Below are positions 10,636-20,392 of a DNA stretch of 21,435 bases, in pieces. Numbering within the stretch: the stretch's first letter is position 1; each line of letters starts with the position of its first letter. Origin of the DNA: a virus. Location of the stretch: positions 1-21,435 of IMG/VR virus record IMGVR_UViG_3300034010_000457. One strand, written 5' to 3'. The position numbers and the translations under genes were made by a program. The notes beneath the pieces were generated by a model. That model was given only the letters and a program-made list of their open reading frames with translations, was not told the DNA's origin and did no database searches.

Positions 10636-10648
10636 CGGGAAGCGCCAT

Positions 10649-10687
10649 GCTTCAACGCAACCAGGCAACCAAGGGTGAAAACGATGG
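10649..10687 (+). repeat. 39-bp leader repeat, copy 1
   Basis: It matches 10937-10975 with a single mismatch. It ends at the start codon of the next gene and contains the AAGGGTGA ribosome site, so it is a duplicated translation leader. Identity stops at the start codon; the two proteins are not alike. Confidence 0.85.
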
Positions 10688-10929: not shown

Positions 10930-10936
10930 CCGCCAC

Positions 10937-10975
10937 GCTTCAACGCAACCAGGCAACCAAGGGTGAAAAAGATGG
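10937..10975 (+). repeat. 39-bp leader repeat, copy 2
   Basis: Second copy of the leader at 10649-10687, ending at the ATG of the next gene. A gene-plus-leader arrangement like this suggests modular gain of small genes by recombination at the shared leader. Confidence 0.85.
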
Positions 10976-11247
10976 CCCCGCTACACGATCCGCATAACCT
11001 GACCGACCCTAAAAGGTGGACGCGAAAACGCATTCCTTTGACCGGCCCATGGAAACCCGCAAGCGGGTATATGACAAAAGCCGGAAAGCCGATGTGGCGT
11101 GTCTGGAACGATGACGCGCAGCCACACAAAGCGGAGCTGCTCGACGCGCGAGGATGCCCGAGACTGTTTCGGACATTCGATGCCGCACACAAGGCTGCAG
11201 AGGATCAGAACCGGAAGTCCGCGCCTGATCGCCACGCGAACTCTTGA
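10972..11247 (+). CDS. Unknown 91-aa basic protein behind leader copy 2
   Basis: ATG at 10972 sits in the same place relative to the leader repeat as the ATG at 10684; a GTG three codons earlier is rejected on that comparison. The protein is basic and rich in Pro, Trp, Lys and His (PKRWTRKRIPLTGPWKPASG, then GKPMWRVWNDDAQPHKAELL). It has no membrane segment or cysteine pair. The stop TGA (11245-11247) lies in the -35 box of the next promoter. Function unknown. Confidence 0.63.
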   Translation: MAPLHDPHNLTDPKRWTRKRIPLTGPWKPASGYMTKAGKPMWRVWNDDAQPHKAELLDARGCPRLFRTFDAAHKAAEDQNRKSAPDRHANS

Positions 11248-11280
11248 CATGACAGCCAGGGGTCGCATAATGGTTTATGC
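11244..11280 (+). promoter_or_regulatory. Promoter with overlapping GCATAA-N4-TTATGC operator
   Basis: TTGACA (11244-11249), a 16-bp spacer and CATAAT (11266-11271). The palindrome GCATAATGGTTTATGC (11265-11280) covers the -10 box and expected start site, so a bound protein would block initiation. It lies 19 bp before the start of the HTH gene at 11300, which suggests autoregulation. The same operator recurs at 15395, 15672 (one arm imperfect) and 20590. Confidence 0.7.
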
Positions 11281-14807: not shown

Positions 14808-15130
14808 GGTCACGATTGAAGAACCGCAGGCCGGGGTTAACGTTTACACTGCCGCACCCCGGCAATATTTCCGTTTTGGTCTACGACGTGATGGTCGGGT
14901 TCGACGAGGCCGGCACTCCGAAGGAAGTATTTATCTCGGCTAACAAGCCGACAACTGCCATGGACGTTGCCGCCCGCGACACTGCCACGCTGATCAGCAT
15001 CGCGCTGCAACACGGCGCAACGATCGCAGAGCTGTCCGCCGCCATGACGCGCGGCGACGAGGGCGAACCGCAGGGTGTGGCAGGTGCTGTGCTCGACGCG
15101 GTTCGCGAATTTGAGCAAGGAGGAGCGTAA
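14804..15130 (+). CDS. Stand-alone TSCPD-domain protein
   Basis: 108 aa from GTG at 14804, with AGGAGG 8 nt upstream and a GTGA overlap with the helicase stop. The sequence follows the TSCPD domain found at the C-terminus of some ribonucleotide reductases and as free small proteins: an N-terminal RSRLKNRRPGLTF, EVFISANKPTTAMDVAARDTATLISIALQHG, then a short tail with GAVLDAVREF. Free copies in phages are often annotated as ribonucleotide-reductase-like, but there is no catalytic reductase part here, so no dNTP synthesis can be claimed. It may act on a host reductase or bind nucleotides. The family call is by motif pattern. Confidence 0.7.
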   Translation: MRSRLKNRRPGLTFTLPHPGNISVLVYDVMVGFDEAGTPKEVFISANKPTTAMDVAARDTATLISIALQHGATIAELSAAMTRGDEGEPQGVAGAVLDAVREFEQGGA

Positions 15131-15131
15131 C

Positions 15132-15377
15132 ATGAATGTGAAAGATGGCGGACAGGCGTTTCCAACACACGCAGAATACTCGAAAGTGTGTAGCGACGGG
15201 TACACTTGGCACCACGGCACGGTGTCCGGCATGTCCTTGCGCGATTGGTTCGCGGGGCAGGCTGTAGCCGGGCTTATGTCGAACACGGATTTCTTGTCGA
15301 GACATAGGTCCGATGACATCGCGAGAGCGGCATTCAAAGTTGCCGATGCGCTATTGGAATTTAGAAAATCGCGTTGA
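15132..15377 (+). CDS. Small conserved phage protein (MSLRDWFAGQA type)
   Basis: 81 aa. ATG at 15132 is supported by AGGAGG 8 nt upstream. The sequence DGGQAFPTHAEYS, then GMSLRDWFAGQAVAGLMS, then AARAAF-type helix residues (ARAAFKVADALLEFR) belongs to a small-protein type that is very common in phages but has no known function. It has no membrane span. Its TGA stop (15375-15377) lies inside the -35 box of the next promoter. Confidence 0.75.
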   Translation: MNVKDGGQAFPTHAEYSKVCSDGYTWHHGTVSGMSLRDWFAGQAVAGLMSNTDFLSRHRSDDIARAAFKVADALLEFRKSR

Positions 15378-15427
15378 CACCAACCCGCCAATCTGCATAA
15401 TATTTTATGCGTCGATCAACACAGGAG
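15373..15427 (+). repeat. 55-bp promoter-leader repeat, copy 1
   Basis: This segment and 15650-15704 differ at only 4 of 55 positions. Both hold a complete promoter, the palindromic operator and a ribosome site. It is a duplicated expression cassette. Confidence 0.88.
15374..15410 (+). promoter_or_regulatory. Promoter with GCATAA-N4-TTATGC operator
   Basis: TTGACA (15374-15379), a 16-bp spacer, CATAAT (15396-15401). The palindrome GCATAATATTTTATGC (15395-15410) covers the -10 box and start site. The upstream TGA stop lies in the -35 box. It drives the 72-aa gene at 15436. Confidence 0.72.
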
Positions 15428-15435
15428 GCAATGGC

Positions 15436-15654
15436 ATGAAACGCCACTGGTCTGAGACATACGGTTGCGCGTGCGGCGCTCGGTTCACGAGTTACGCGGC
15501 GGGAGCGCGGCACCGACACAATTATCCGCTGCTGTGTCGCCAGCCGAAAGTGATAAAAACCCCAACTTTAACCCGAGTATGGATCGACGAAGCCGGCGCC
15601 ATAACGCCGGAAAACTTTGCGCGCATCGGCGCACTCATCAAAGGCGACGGTTGA
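15436..15654 (+). CDS. Small Cys/His protein, probably zinc-binding
   Basis: 72 aa. ATG at 15436 follows AGGAGG by 7 nt; an ATG at 15431 gives only a dipeptide frame. The N-terminal half has CACGARF, then ARHRHNYPLLCR, that is C-x-C, H-x-H and C, enough ligands for one zinc. The rest contains a short helix (ENFARIGALIKG). No family is recognised. It sits between two copies of the promoter cassette, so it is separately controlled. Its stop lies in the -35 box of the next promoter. Confidence 0.62.
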   Translation: MKRHWSETYGCACGARFTSYAAGARHRHNYPLLCRQPKVIKTPTLTRVWIDEAGAITPENFARIGALIKGDG

Positions 15655-15704
15655 CACCGACCCGCCAGTATGTATAATATTTTATGCGTCGATCAACACA
15701 GGAG
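15650..15704 (+). repeat. 55-bp promoter-leader repeat, copy 2
   Basis: Second copy of the cassette at 15373-15427, placed between the 72-aa and 139-aa genes. The four changes improve the -10 box to TATAAT and break one arm of the palindrome (GTATAA in place of GCATAA). Confidence 0.88.
15651..15687 (+). promoter_or_regulatory. Strong promoter with a partly mutated operator
   Basis: TTGACA (15651-15656), a 16-bp spacer and a perfect TATAAT (15673-15678), the best promoter of the window. The palindrome here is GTATAATATTTTATGC (15672-15687), one arm off consensus, so repression may be weaker than at 15395. It drives the 139-aa gene and the nuclease-SSB-polymerase run behind it. Confidence 0.75.
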
Positions 15705-15714
15705 AAACATCGAC

Positions 15715-16134
15715 ATGCAAATCCACATTCAAATCAATCTCGACACGGAAAAGGACGACGTTGCTCGGGTACTGAGTGCCTTGGCCGGGACGCACGGTTT
15801 TCCCGCCCCGGCCGCCGTGCCTACGCCGTCGGCCCCGCCCAAGGCCAAGGCCGAGAAGAAGGAAACCCCCGCAGCCCCGGAGCCCGCACCTGCCGCCATT
15901 ACCGCAGGCGCCCCTTCTGACTACGTGCCGACTGAGGCGGAACTGTCGACGGCGGCGAACAGCGCCATCGACAAGCTCGGTGCCGGCGCGCAGGCCAGGG
16001 TGAAGGAATACATTGCGGCCACGTTCCAGAAGGACGACGGCTCGCCCGCCGGTCTGCGCACGGTTCGCGCCGATCAGCGCGCGCGGCTGCTCGCCGACCT
16101 GAACGCTTTTGCCGCCGGCAAGAAGGTGATCTGA
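15715..16134 (+). CDS. Unknown protein upstream of the DUF2800 nuclease
   Basis: 139 aa from ATG at 15715, with an AGGAGAA site about 10 nt upstream. Layout: a short beta N-terminus (MQIHIQINLDTEKDDVARVL), a Pro/Ala/Lys-rich flexible linker at about residues 30-68, then a folded helical C-terminal domain (ELSTAANSAIDKLGAGAQARVKEYI, then RTVRADQRARLLADLNAF). The acidic and basic mix with a linker suits an accessory protein of the recombination-replication complex. It sits directly before the nuclease and SSB genes, 1 bp from the nuclease start. No family is recognised with confidence. Confidence 0.66.
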   Translation: MQIHIQINLDTEKDDVARVLSALAGTHGFPAPAAVPTPSAPPKAKAEKKETPAAPEPAPAAITAGAPSDYVPTEAELSTAANSAIDKLGAGAQARVKEYIAATFQKDDGSPAGLRTVRADQRARLLADLNAFAAGKKVI

Positions 16135-16135
16135 T

Positions 16136-17332
16136 ATGTCAGACGAACGGGAACATCTTCCGTTCGGCGGATCGAACGCGCACCGCTGGTTGCGGTGCGC
16201 GGCGTCCGTCAAGCTGTGCGCCGCCGCGCCGCCAAGCCCGCCGAGCGAGCACGCCATGCGCGGCACCCATGCCCATGCCCTGCTGGAACTGGCGCTGCGC
16301 GAGCGGCGGGACAGCGTGTTGGAGTTCGAGGGCCAGGCTCTGCTGCCGGGCCACGTCGAATACGACGCCGAGGATGTCGAGGCGGTGCAGAAGGCCGTCG
16401 ATTTCATCCTGCCGCTGCTGCATGAGCCGGATGCAATCGTGCTGATCGAGCAGAAGTTCAAGCTGCACGAGGATACGGGCGGCACGGCGGATTGCGTGAT
16501 CTACGACCCGGCATCCGAGACGCTGCGCGTCATCGACTACAAGCACGGCTATAAACTGGTTGACGCGGCGGCGGTGCAGCTTCGGTTTTACGCCTTGTGC
16601 GCAACGATCAACTGGCAGCACCCGGTTCGTCGTATCGAGGCAACTGTGATCCAGCCACGCGCGTTCGGTGCCGAGCCGATCCGCACGATGCTCTACGGGC
16701 CGGCGGACCTGATGGTGCTCGACGGTGAGATTGACGAGGCAAGGGCGAACGCGCTGGCGGTCGAGCCAGAACCGACGCCGGGTTCGTGGTGCCAGTGGTG
16801 CGCGGGCGCGCCGGACTGCCCGGCGCTGCCGCGAACAGCGGTCCGCGCAACCGAGATATGGCCGGTGCACGGCGACAGCGTAACTGTAACGTTACCGCCT
16901 GCCGGTTCATGCCGCGATCCGCAGAAACTGGCCGAGACGCTGGCGCTGCTGCCCGTGCTGCAGGCGTTCATCGACGGCATCGAGGACGCCGCCCTGTCGA
17001 TGGCGATGGGCGGCACGAAGATCCCCGGCATGAAGTTGATCGAGAAGCAGGCTCGCCGGTCGTGGGAGAACGCCGAAGGGGCGAAGAGATGGTTCGCCGA
17101 GAACACCATACTCGACGAGGACGAGTACGCGCCGCGCAAGCTGCTGACCGTCGCGCAGGCGGAGAAGCTGATCAAGTCCGACAAGGCCGCCGTGAAATCC
17201 ATGGCCGCGTTTGTCGAGAAGAAATCTTCGGGATTGAAGCTGGTCCCTGAGACGGCGAAGGGGGAGGCCGTGGACCCCGCCGCTGCAATGACTGCCACGG
17301 TCGGAGCGCCTGTCGCGCTGCCGCAACCCTGA
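16136..17332 (+). CDS. DUF2800 family PD-(D/E)XK nuclease
   Basis: 398 aa from ATG at 16136. It shows the DUF2800 layout: SNAHRWLRCAASVKL at the N-terminus, then the nuclease core with E105 (IEQKF), D119 (GGTADCVIYD) and D134-Y-K136 (VIDYKHG), then Q148 and Y152 in VQLRFYAL. Four cysteines in the AddB/Cas4 pattern, C21 then C219, C222 and C228 (SWCQWC...C), suggest a 4Fe-4S cluster that ties the ends together. The C-terminal third is helical. It is probably a DNA exonuclease that works with the DUF2815 ssDNA-binding protein and the SNF2 helicase in recombination-coupled replication; the family's exact activity is, to my knowledge, not settled. The catalytic residues are complete. Confidence 0.88.
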   Translation: MSDEREHLPFGGSNAHRWLRCAASVKLCAAAPPSPPSEHAMRGTHAHALLELALRERRDSVLEFEGQALLPGHVEYDAEDVEAVQKAVDFILPLLHEPDAIVLIEQKFKLHEDTGGTADCVIYDPASETLRVIDYKHGYKLVDAAAVQLRFYALCATINWQHPVRRIEATVIQPRAFGAEPIRTMLYGPADLMVLDGEIDEARANALAVEPEPTPGSWCQWCAGAPDCPALPRTAVRATEIWPVHGDSVTVTLPPAGSCRDPQKLAETLALLPVLQAFIDGIEDAALSMAMGGTKIPGMKLIEKQARRSWENAEGAKRWFAENTILDEDEYAPRKLLTVAQAEKLIKSDKAAVKSMAAFVEKKSSGLKLVPETAKGEAVDPAAAMTATVGAPVALPQP

Positions 17333-17348
17333 AAATCGGAGATCGAAA

Positions 17349-18092
17349 ATGTTGACCGCGATTGACCCGCGCATGAATACGCGCCTGACGCTGGAGCAGA
17401 TCAACTTCCTGCTGCGCAGCAAACCGATGCGCGTCGCCGAAGGTGGCGGCGTGCTGAGCGGCGCGGTGCGCCTGTCGTACCCGAGCCTTGCGAAGCGAGC
17501 CAAGAACCTTCGCGACCCGAACGCCGAAGGCAAGTATCAGGCGGCCGGACTGTTCCCGACCACGAACATCGGCCCGCTTGCCGAGTTGTGCAAGAGCACG
17601 GCGCGCGCTGCGTATCCGAGCGTCACCGACCCGTCCATGTTCATGGACAAGTACAGCAAGAACTCGCCGATCAAGGACCAGGCTCTGAAGGTCAACGTCG
17701 CCGACGGTGGGCGTGAGCCGATGAAGGGCACCAGCGACGGCTATGTCGTCGGCCTGCCGTTCTTCAACGCCAAGTCCGGTCGGCAGGTCCCGTGCTTCAA
17801 GGCGGTTGCCGGGCGGTGGGTGCCGATCCTGCCCGAAGAACTGGAAAAGGAAATGTACGGCGGCGCGTGGGTCGAGGCGAAGCTGGTCTGCTTCAAGTCC
17901 ACCACGTCGGCCAATCCCGGCGTGGCTCTTGGGTTGCAGGGCCTGTGGAAGCTGGCCGACGACAACTTCCTCGGTGGCGGGGGCGGCGCGTCGGCTGACG
18001 AGGGCGGCGAGGCGGTCGCGCTCGGGGTCGAAGACCCGAACCAGATCATGCAGTCCACGGCTGCGGCCGGCGGCAGCGACGGGTGGGGGTAA
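17349..18092 (+). CDS. DUF2815 / Enc34-type ssDNA-binding protein
   Basis: 247 aa from ATG at 17349, with GGAGAT about 8 nt upstream. The family signature is GAVRLSYPSLAKRAKN, then EGKYQAAGLFPTT, then the core around VVGLPFFNAKSGRQVPC and GGAWVEAKLVCFKS. Proteins of this family (Enc34 ORF6 type) have an OB fold and bind single-stranded DNA. The C-terminus is Gly-rich and acidic, ending GSDGWG, like the flexible tails by which SSBs recruit partners. It probably coats ssDNA for the polymerase encoded downstream and for recombination. About the first 30 residues before GAVRLSYPS look like an added helical segment. It is preceded by the DUF2800 gene, the usual order. Confidence 0.88.
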   Translation: MLTAIDPRMNTRLTLEQINFLLRSKPMRVAEGGGVLSGAVRLSYPSLAKRAKNLRDPNAEGKYQAAGLFPTTNIGPLAELCKSTARAAYPSVTDPSMFMDKYSKNSPIKDQALKVNVADGGREPMKGTSDGYVVGLPFFNAKSGRQVPCFKAVAGRWVPILPEELEKEMYGGAWVEAKLVCFKSTTSANPGVALGLQGLWKLADDNFLGGGGGASADEGGEAVALGVEDPNQIMQSTAAAGGSDGWG

Positions 18093-18096
18093 TAAC

Positions 18097-18384
18097 GTGA
18101 ACCCTTACAGAAAAGGCGTGGAAGACTTGCGCCGAAGGACCGCGGCTGCCGTATGCCCGTTCGACCTTGGAACCAAGGACGCGCAGCAATGGATGCAAGG
18201 TGCACTGTGGGCGCGGAAGCAAGAAGTCAAGCAGGTGCACCCCAAGGGATCGGAATGTTCGGATGAAGATTTATCTCGATTTCGAAACGCGCAGTGCATG
18301 CGACCTGGTGAAGTGCGGATCCGCGCGTTACGCGCAGGATCCCACGACGGAGGTTCTGTGCGCGGCGTATCTGATCGAGGATGA
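18097..18384 (+). CDS. RMF-like small protein overlapping the polymerase gene
   Basis: 95 aa from GTG at 18097, 4 bp after the DUF2815 stop, with a G-rich stretch (GGTGGGGG) as ribosome site. The N-terminal 45 residues fit the ribosome modulation factor / CrpP-like pattern: NPYRKG, a basic helix, then CPF, eight residues on, W, and a following G (MNPYRKGVEDLRRR, CPFDLGTKDAQQW, MQGALWARKQ). RMF dimerises and silences ribosomes in stressed enterobacteria; relatives in phages and plasmids have other or unknown roles. The frame does not stop before the polymerase ATG at 18263 and continues for 122 bp in another frame of that gene, giving an Arg/Gly-rich tail that may be a passive extension. The core match is good; the functional copy boundary is uncertain. 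Confidence 0.55.
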   Translation: MNPYRKGVEDLRRRTAAAVCPFDLGTKDAQQWMQGALWARKQEVKQVHPKGSECSDEDLSRFRNAQCMRPGEVRIRALRAGSHDGGSVRGVSDRG

Positions 18385-20392
18385 ATGGGGCCACGGTTCC
18401 ATGACCCTGTGGCGGCGGGGCGACCCGCCGCCACGAAACCTGATCGACGCCGTGGCCGCAGGCGCGACGATCGTGGCACACAACGCCATGTTCGAGCTGA
18501 TGATCTGGACCTACGTTTGCGAACCGCGCCTTGGGTGGGGCAAGCTGTCTCCGCATCAGATGGACTGCACGATGGCGCGGTCGCACATCATGTCCCTGAT
18601 GGGATCACTGGACGGCGCGAGCACGCTGCTGCGGGTCAAGGCCCGCAAGAACGCCGAGGGTCACGCGGCGATGGTGCGGCTGTGCAAGCCGCGCAAGCCG
18701 AAGAAAGGCGAGCCGACTGATGTGATCCTATGGAACGAAGACCCTGAGGATTTCAGAAAGCTGTACGTTTACTGTCCGGACGACGTGTGGACGACGATCG
18801 ACCTTGACAAGGAACTGCCGCCGTTCAGCGACGGAGAGCGCGAGGTCTACCATTTTGATCTTGTTGTGAACCTGCGCGGCTTCCGTCTCGATACGGAACT
18901 GATGCGCAAGGCCGACGCATTCCTGGACGAGGCGAAGCGCCGCGTCGATGTCGAGTTGTGCGCGCTGACGGACGGCGCTGTGGCGAAGGCCACGCAGCTT
19001 GAAAGCATCAAGACGTGGCTGCGCGGGCGCGGCATCCCGGTCGAGAGCATGAGCAAGGGCGATGTCGAGGACATCATCGACCACGCCCGGCTGTTCGAGG
19101 ACGAACTGGCCGAGCGCGTCGTGACGCTGCGCCGGCTCGGGGCAAAGGCGACCAGTCTGGCGAAGTACGGGGCGGGTCTGCGCTGCGTGAACTTCGACGA
19201 GCGGGCGCGCGGCCTGCTGGTTTACCACAAGGCCAGCACCGGCCGGTGGGCCGGGTCGCTGTACCAGCCGCACAACCTTGAGCGCATAGACCCCGACGAA
19301 GACGGGCCGCTGATCGAGAACATGCTGCACATCCTGCGGAACGCCGCTTCGCCGGCCGATGCCGTGGACTGGTGCGAACTGCTCGGCTACGTGCCGATGC
19401 GCGCGATCGGCAAGTGCACCCGCGCGATGATCGTCGCCGAGGACGGCAAGGAACTGATCGGCTGCGACTACTCGAACGTCGAGGGGCGCGGCTCGGCGTG
19501 GCTGGCCGGCGAGACGTGGAAGACCGAGGCGTTCCGCGAATACGACGCGGGGATCGGGCCGGACCTGTACAAGCTGTCATACAGCAAGTCGTTCGGCGAG
19601 CCGGTCGAGAGCATCGGCAAGGGGCCGAAGCGCCAGATCGGCAAGGTGCAGGAACTGTTCCTCGGCTACCAGGGTGCGGTCGGCGCGTTCCTGTCCGGCG
19701 CTGCGAACTACGGGTTCAAGCCGGACGCCATCGCGCGAGTCGTGATGCCGACCGCCGACCCTGTGATGTGGGAGAAGTCGCGGGTCAAGTTCGAGAACAG
19801 CGCGAAGTTCGGGCTGTCCGAAGATGTGTGGACCTCGCTGCGCTACGTCGTGGACGGCTGGCGAGCCGGCCACCCGCGCACGGTTCAGTCGTGGTGGGAC
19901 GTGCAGGACGCCGTGGTCGAGGCCGTCAGCGAGCCGGGCCAGATGGTCCAGCTACTCGGCGGCAAGGTCAGGATGTACTGCGCACGCAACCGCAAGTTCC
20001 TGCACATCTATCTGCCGAGCGGCAGGCCGCTGTCATATTTTTACCCGCGCATCCGCGAGACGAAGGAAGCCGGCCGTATTCGGCGGCAGGTCATCGTCGA
20101 GGGAGGGGACAGCCGCTTGAACAAGTGGGGCGATGTGTCGCTCTACGGCGGGCTGATATGGGAGAACATCATCCAGGGTTTGTGCCGCGATCTGCTTGTG
20201 TTCGGCATGATGAACTGCGAGCGCGCCGGCTACCCGGTTGTGCTCCATGTCCATGATGAAGGCGTGTTCGAGGTTCTGATCGGCACCGGGGACAAGGCTG
20301 AAGTGCAGGAACTCATGGCCGTGCTGCCGTCTTGGGCTGCCGGCTTCCCGTTAACCAGCGCCGCGTGGCGCGACAGGAGGTTTGTGAAATGA
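18263..20392 (+). CDS. Family A DNA polymerase with 3'-5' exonuclease
   Basis: 709 aa from ATG at 18263; a longer reading from 18167 would overlap the RMF-like gene without a ribosome site. The exonuclease domain has Exo I DFE (D7, E9), Exo II around HNAMFE (73-78) and Exo III YCPDD (170-174). The polymerase domain has the template-primer and fingers region with KRQIGKVQELFLGYQ (O-helix-like, 457-471), motif A LIGCDYSNVEGRG (D402 as metal ligand) and motif C HDE (664-666). All catalytic residues are present, so a proofreading replicative polymerase is expected; no 5' nuclease domain is attached, as in T7 gp5-like enzymes. It follows the nuclease and SSB genes and overlaps the next gene by 4 bp. 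Identification is firm. Confidence 0.95.
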   Translation: MKIYLDFETRSACDLVKCGSARYAQDPTTEVLCAAYLIEDEWGHGSMTLWRRGDPPPRNLIDAVAAGATIVAHNAMFELMIWTYVCEPRLGWGKLSPHQMDCTMARSHIMSLMGSLDGASTLLRVKARKNAEGHAAMVRLCKPRKPKKGEPTDVILWNEDPEDFRKLYVYCPDDVWTTIDLDKELPPFSDGEREVYHFDLVVNLRGFRLDTELMRKADAFLDEAKRRVDVELCALTDGAVAKATQLESIKTWLRGRGIPVESMSKGDVEDIIDHARLFEDELAERVVTLRRLGAKATSLAKYGAGLRCVNFDERARGLLVYHKASTGRWAGSLYQPHNLERIDPDEDGPLIENMLHILRNAASPADAVDWCELLGYVPMRAIGKCTRAMIVAEDGKELIGCDYSNVEGRGSAWLAGETWKTEAFREYDAGIGPDLYKLSYSKSFGEPVESIGKGPKRQIGKVQELFLGYQGAVGAFLSGAANYGFKPDAIARVVMPTADPVMWEKSRVKFENSAKFGLSEDVWTSLRYVVDGWRAGHPRTVQSWWDVQDAVVEAVSEPGQMVQLLGGKVRMYCARNRKFLHIYLPSGRPLSYFYPRIRETKEAGRIRRQVIVEGGDSRLNKWGDVSLYGGLIWENIIQGLCRDLLVFGMMNCERAGYPVVLHVHDEGVFEVLIGTGDKAEVQELMAVLPSWAAGFPLTSAAWRDRRFVK

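Follow-up and report, generated by a model that had tools for sequence, protein, structure and literature searches.

What is encoded by the small open reading frame (ORF) resembling ribosome modulation factor (RMF) that lies between the SSB and DNA polymerase genes of this virus, and does its long out-of-frame run into the polymerase gene matter? Taking as our window the whole stretch of DNA analyzed, a 21,435-base virus record (GC 56-67% by kilobase), we consider it probable that the ORF encodes an RMF/CrpP-fold protein carried as accessory cargo in the slot between SSB and polymerase, and that its tail is a frame opened accidentally by the polymerase coding sequence. The working part would be about the first 45-50 residues, comprising two helices and a CPF linker, and the last ~40 residues would be the first codons of the polymerase in another frame, there being no earlier stop in the RMF frame. 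The protein, which we infer to be translated and expressed early, may bind a host macromolecule during takeover.

The RMF-like gene appears to be made with the replication proteins, as the earlier note had proposed, from a single operon that follows a promoter-like site of consensus sequence (Table 1): between 15651-15678 and the polymerase start, a scan for promoters and terminators returned no further example of either on the + strand. Two starts in this operon call for comment. ATG 15715 was taken to open its first ORF on the basis of an AGGAG upstream, and ATG 18263 corresponds to polymerase residue 1 when five diverged polymerases (71-73% identical) are aligned with it. A tRNA search of the window found none. 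The 55-bp cassette of promoter-like site and leader (TTGACA-16-[TC]ATAAT ... AGGAG) is duplicated, its copies at 15373-15427 and 15650-15704 being 277 bp apart and 93% identical; another promoter-like match, the third, is found at 11244-11271. At 10643-10687 and 10931-10975, separated by 288 bp, are the two 45-bp copies of a direct repeat with 96% identity.

Table 1. Features of the replication operon and of the RMF-like ORF, in window coordinates.
Feature	Position	Strand	Basis or remark
Promoter-like site, TTGACA-16-TATAAT	15651..15678	+	Upstream of operon; 12/12 match to sigma-70 consensus, a consensus match only
First ORF of operon, no function assigned	15715..16134	+	ORF list gives 15670-16134
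DUF2800 / PD-(D/E)XK exonuclease	16136..17332	+	PF10926 4.2e-50, phrog_69 3.2e-75
SSB, gp2.5/Enc34 type	17349..18092	+	PF10991 2.1e-13, phrog_112 1.5e-21
GGGGG, possible ribosome-binding site	18085..18089	+	7 nt before GTG 18097; putative, read from the sequence
Putative RMF/CrpP-fold domain, codons 1-44	18097..18228	+	Profile of 12 other members, motif-fixed shuffles, predicted helix-linker-helix
Remainder of RMF-like ORF	18229..18384	+	From 18263 on, polymerase gene in another frame
Family A DNA polymerase	18263..20392	+	phrog_17 5.2e-87; start by alignment

The ORF is open from GTG 18097 to a stop ending at 18384 (95 codons), and its GTG lies one base past TAATAA, in which the SSB stop (TAA 18090-18092) is followed by a second in-frame stop; both this choice of start and the expectation of translation follow from position. 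The reading frame and the aligned polymerase start bear out the arrangement described previously, of an RMF-like ORF placed between SSB and polymerase and overlapping the latter out of frame by 122 nt. Since 18097-18384 recurs without mismatch in three other contigs (IMG samples 3300008116, 3300021584, and 3300021582, of which the second and third may be related), assembly error is an unlikely source of the ORF. Two otherwise identical contigs differ elsewhere, one lacking ~101 bp inside SSB (window 17683-17783) and the other ~197 bp upstream (window 15038-15234), through real deletion or assembly fault. Scans by protein, polymerase, motif, and sister SSB recovered identical copies only, and no diverged one. 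Among 50 related records, the family profile (window row included) places the RMF-like gene in one, L003, which represents the window lineage; PF04957 likewise matches this lineage at the slot, together with two weak matches elsewhere, one of which holds internal stops.

We conclude from profile comparison and predicted structure that codons 1-44 encode a putative, divergent RMF/CrpP-fold domain. Eight residues define its motif (P3, Y4, G7, C20-P21-F22, W32, and G35), and the corresponding pattern, P[YF]xxG-x12-CP[YF]-x9-WxxG, has a single match in the window and none in 100 shuffles. Recast as a DNA pattern and run over viral contigs, it returned 17 stretches, three of them from the window lineage; all 14 of the others are open over the motif, and they represent 12 distinct domains, every one of which matches PF04957, NF041886, and NF041887 at E <= 1 (best 8.3e-8, 2.2e-9, and 2.4e-6, respectively). 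A profile built from these 12 phage members, with the window excluded, scores the ORF at 34.3 bits, part of which arises by construction, since the selection of the relatives had already required these eight residues; the best other frame, among 383 stop-to-stop frames of at least 30 residues, reaches 5.7 bits. Because the relatives had been chosen by motif, the 44-residue domain was also shuffled with the eight residues fixed, and only 2 of 2000 such shuffles equaled the real score. The family profile that includes the window row matches the RMF sequences 6h4n, 4v8g, and 2jrm (E 1.3e-6 to 6.1e-6).

The single sequence fares less well against curated models: although it has 34.3 bits to the phage profile, it reaches no curated cut-off. 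Searched directly, PF04957 gives 11.0 bits (E 0.011 for the record, model positions 13-46) against a cut-off of 27.9, and NF041887 gives 9.4 bits against a cut-off of 40; NF041886 (cut-off 28 bits) and phrog_10492 do not match the window protein. The window row matched no NCBIfam family at E <= 1, CrpP (NF033696) included, and searches with the RMF-like protein alone yielded nothing relevant in Pfam, PHROGs, NCBIfam, or PADLOC, no tblastn match in phages at E 1, and no RMF by phmmer in the PDB. A variant pattern with one residue less before W gave ten viral matches, nine of them open. In bacterial genomes 16 of 23 pattern matches are open, and the seven that contain stops are chance, so chance matches do occur. 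The one extra match of a longer pattern (L089) was rejected as a relative, its frame having different spacing. Taken as a whole, the gene adds a divergent member to an already known superfamily of small proteins, and is probably early accessory cargo of putative function.

Structure prediction points the same way, and together with the family profile it supports the earlier assignment of the first ~45 codons to an RMF/CrpP-like fold. With the family alignment, AlphaFold2 placed helices at residues 3-12 and 27-47 (pLDDT 93, 79, 94, and 94 for the first four tens of residues), and on the first 50 residues alone at 3-18 and 27-47 (mean pLDDT 81.9, pTM 0.39); a CP[YF] linker between two helices is thus predicted with and without the alignment. 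In the family-alignment model pLDDT is low past residue 60 and under 50 for residues 66-86. Neither Foldseek nor VIA-align against the PDB listed RMF among the matches for either model. In BFVD, the proteins listed by Foldseek include numerous short ones from phages, at weak E-values (none better than 0.25 among the matches listed), and 15 of the 50 listed rows superpose closely (rmsd 1.1-1.8 over 40-48 columns); two listed rows named ribosome modulation factor superpose at rmsd 13.7 and 2.4. As the model used for this search was built with family rows, these matches are partly circular, and the single-sequence model serves as their control.

The overlap with the polymerase gene is most simply read as accidental. 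No stop interrupts the RMF frame before the polymerase start at 18263. GC by codon position in the RMF frame up to 18262 (0.64/0.47/0.67) dips at position 2, as is usual; within the overlap, it is the polymerase frame that has this dip (0.59/0.41/0.70), and the codon score is -0.76 for the RMF frame versus +0.30 for the polymerase frame. When the polymerase start was recoded synonymously in 20,000 trials, using the window's own polymerase protein and codons, the open length of the RMF frame had a median of 39 codons, and 53% of the recodings kept it open for at least the 39 codons observed. This median equals the observed length; a tail of such length is to be expected if no stop is present, and it needs no selection.

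Real relatives are less favorable to an accident than the recoding, and the proposition that an open tail is as common among them holds only in part. The same polymerase frame is open for at least 39 codons in 14 of 41 loci (median 10), these being drawn from 80 by leaving out near-duplicates and late-starting matches by hand, with starts extrapolated from the match. Among loci with GC of at least 0.60 over the first 150 bases, 12 of 16 are open for at least 39 codons. In the six sister loci the frame is open for 28, 37, 57, 230, 6, and 0 codons, and openness is therefore not general. In nine of the 12 phage relatives the protein stops shortly beyond the domain, 8-17 residues past WxxG; the other three (L095, L101, and L105) are parts of longer proteins, and an early end is no family rule. 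The last ~40 residues of the window ORF are probably without function. Of the two explanations offered previously for the overlap, coupling of the two genes is not supported, as polymerase coding alone yields the open tail, and the overlap should not count as evidence of coupling; a lost stop was the better half of the guess, although no diverged copy was found that would tell a stop lost from one never present.

In six diverged sister loci, with polymerases 68-73% identical, the content of the SSB-polymerase junction varies (SSB genes in these loci were recognized by eye rather than by profile): the junction is empty in L006, L007, and L013, holds another gene of ~95 residues in L008 and L009, and in L014 holds that gene together with an Acb2-type anti-CBASS gene. 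The RMF-like gene is accessory cargo in this variable slot, and the junction is worth screening as an accessory slot throughout this phage group. The ~95-residue slot gene is itself conserved (L008 2716-2994, L009 2701-2994, L014 2440-2733); neither Pfam nor PHROGs gave a match to its L008 and L009 copies, and PADLOC gave none to its L014 copy. The second gene of L014 (2765-2992), between SSB and polymerase, has an Acb2/Tad1 hairpin domain (PF24729 2.2e-16), a domain present in one other of the 50 related records, away from the slot.

Related domains are more widely spread, RMF-like proteins occurring in varied phages. The domain stands close to the start of a 224-residue protein in L095 and inside a longer protein in L107, and this joining to other sequence would suit a small binding module of general use more than a factor dedicated to the ribosome. 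In seven loci (L101, L105, L107, L137, L139, L140, and L141) it is part of a longer protein, and these proteins have an upstream segment in common. In two further loci, L097 (709-1065) and L104 (4063-4353, - strand), the domain (RMF 2.4e-7 and 6.8e-6) follows a segment with sub-threshold HTH similarity only (HTH_23 about 0.07). With one phage member as the query, tblastn in phage records gave 24 matches, all weak (E 0.1 to 1) and all named hypothetical proteins. A short member is carried by the cultured Caulobacter phage CcrBL9. Among the papers listed by the literature searches there was no functional study of a phage RMF-like protein; an excerpt on phage Milano carries an annotation note on one (PMC6588377).

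Several other readings of the locus deserve weight. That the ORF is a remnant in decay, or is open and resembles the motif by chance, is unlikely, yet this reading would account for observations that we count against our main one: GC3 in the domain is 0.67 against 0.83-0.87 in neighboring genes, and the codon score of codons 1-44, while the best of six frames, is slightly negative (-0.07 per codon), as might be expected of a gene that is recent, ill-adapted, or decaying. The missing stop, the failure to match any curated profile, and the chance matches seen in bacterial genomes also agree with it. Such a frame would be hard to reconcile with the rarity of motif-fixed shuffles that equal the real score, with a domain open and identical in four assemblies, or with the fold predicted from the single sequence. 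We regard as very unlikely a functional overlap, whereby the 95-residue form is made or the polymerase level is set by coupling or interference; the overlap is present and identical in known copies, but its length is the recoding median, the codon signal there is that of the polymerase frame, and the tail is predicted with low confidence. Moreover, the stop lies 122 nt beyond the polymerase start, which is far for termination-reinitiation.

An anti-defense or other anti-host role is suggested by the Acb2-type gene in the same junction of L014, and by the differing slot content of the six sister loci. As this is a single neighbor in one sister phage, it amounts to thin guilt by association, and PADLOC, which lists defense rather than anti-defense proteins, returned no match; we think this role improbable. 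The earlier reading, that the protein silences ribosomes in the manner of RMF and shifts host translation, is rather unlikely. It draws on the relationship of fold, on the gene order with replication genes, and on a net charge of +3, equal to that of RMF residues 14-49; charge was dropped as an argument against RNA binding, as this equality means that it does not speak against the window domain. Six relatives for which charge was computed carry -8 to 0, which tells against silencing, as does a PF04957 score far below cut-off. According to an excerpt of a review (PMC8778775), E. coli RMF owes part of its ribosome binding to R3, K5, and R11, and part of its dimerization to G23 and R45. When the window domain is mapped to E. 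coli RMF by anchoring on G16, C29, and W40, none of these five residues is present, which weakens the case for silencing: nothing aligns at 3 and 5 if GTG 18097 is the start, N stands for R11, and R and L replace G23 and R45. Among the 12 phage relatives G23 is kept in eight, and R11 and R45 in none. Formation of 100S particles by the known route is, on these residues, unlikely, and the fold can evidently persist without the residues that RMF uses on the ribosome.

If an RMF/CrpP-fold protein is indeed carried as cargo in the slot, its single most likely target may be the 30S region bound by RMF, contacted other than via the E. coli RMF residues, an assignment that we offer tentatively. Protein targets are also possible, since PA3049 (rmf/batR), an RMF-family protein of P. 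aeruginosa, is reported in an excerpt of one source to interact with the kinase SrkA (PMC13411936), and by this analogy a host protein may be about as likely a target as the 30S region. It is conceivable, with little probability in our estimation, that the RMF fold has been adopted by phages as an all-purpose module for early takeover of the host, and that the window copy, which has none of the ribosome-binding residues and whose accessory slot houses an anti-CBASS sponge in a sister phage, blocks host defense or another host process by a mechanism as yet undescribed.

Compared with known systems, the window domain appears from its residues and its PF04957 score to fall outside RMF proper. It shares with RMF (PF04957; 6h4n, 4v8g, 2jrm) the arrangement G-x12-CP[YF]-...-WxxG, with one more residue before W, and a predicted helix-linker-helix, but lacks the N-terminal basic arm and equivalents of R11, G23, W44, and R45. 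CrpP (NF033696), whose ciprofloxacin role is itself questioned in an excerpt of one report (PMC10971285), belongs by NCBIfam naming to the same fold superfamily; four of 13 aligned members match it, and the window does not. From the Rmf/CrpP-fold proteins of phages (NF041886, NF041887; phrog_10492) the domain differs at two sites: it lacks the glycine that 8 of the 12 other members have at RMF position 23, and the aromatic residue that follows WxxG in 11 of the 12. Its likeness to these proteins is seen in the short members L094 and L098, which have the motif and share with the window a similar [ST]-x-[DE]-[AG] before W.
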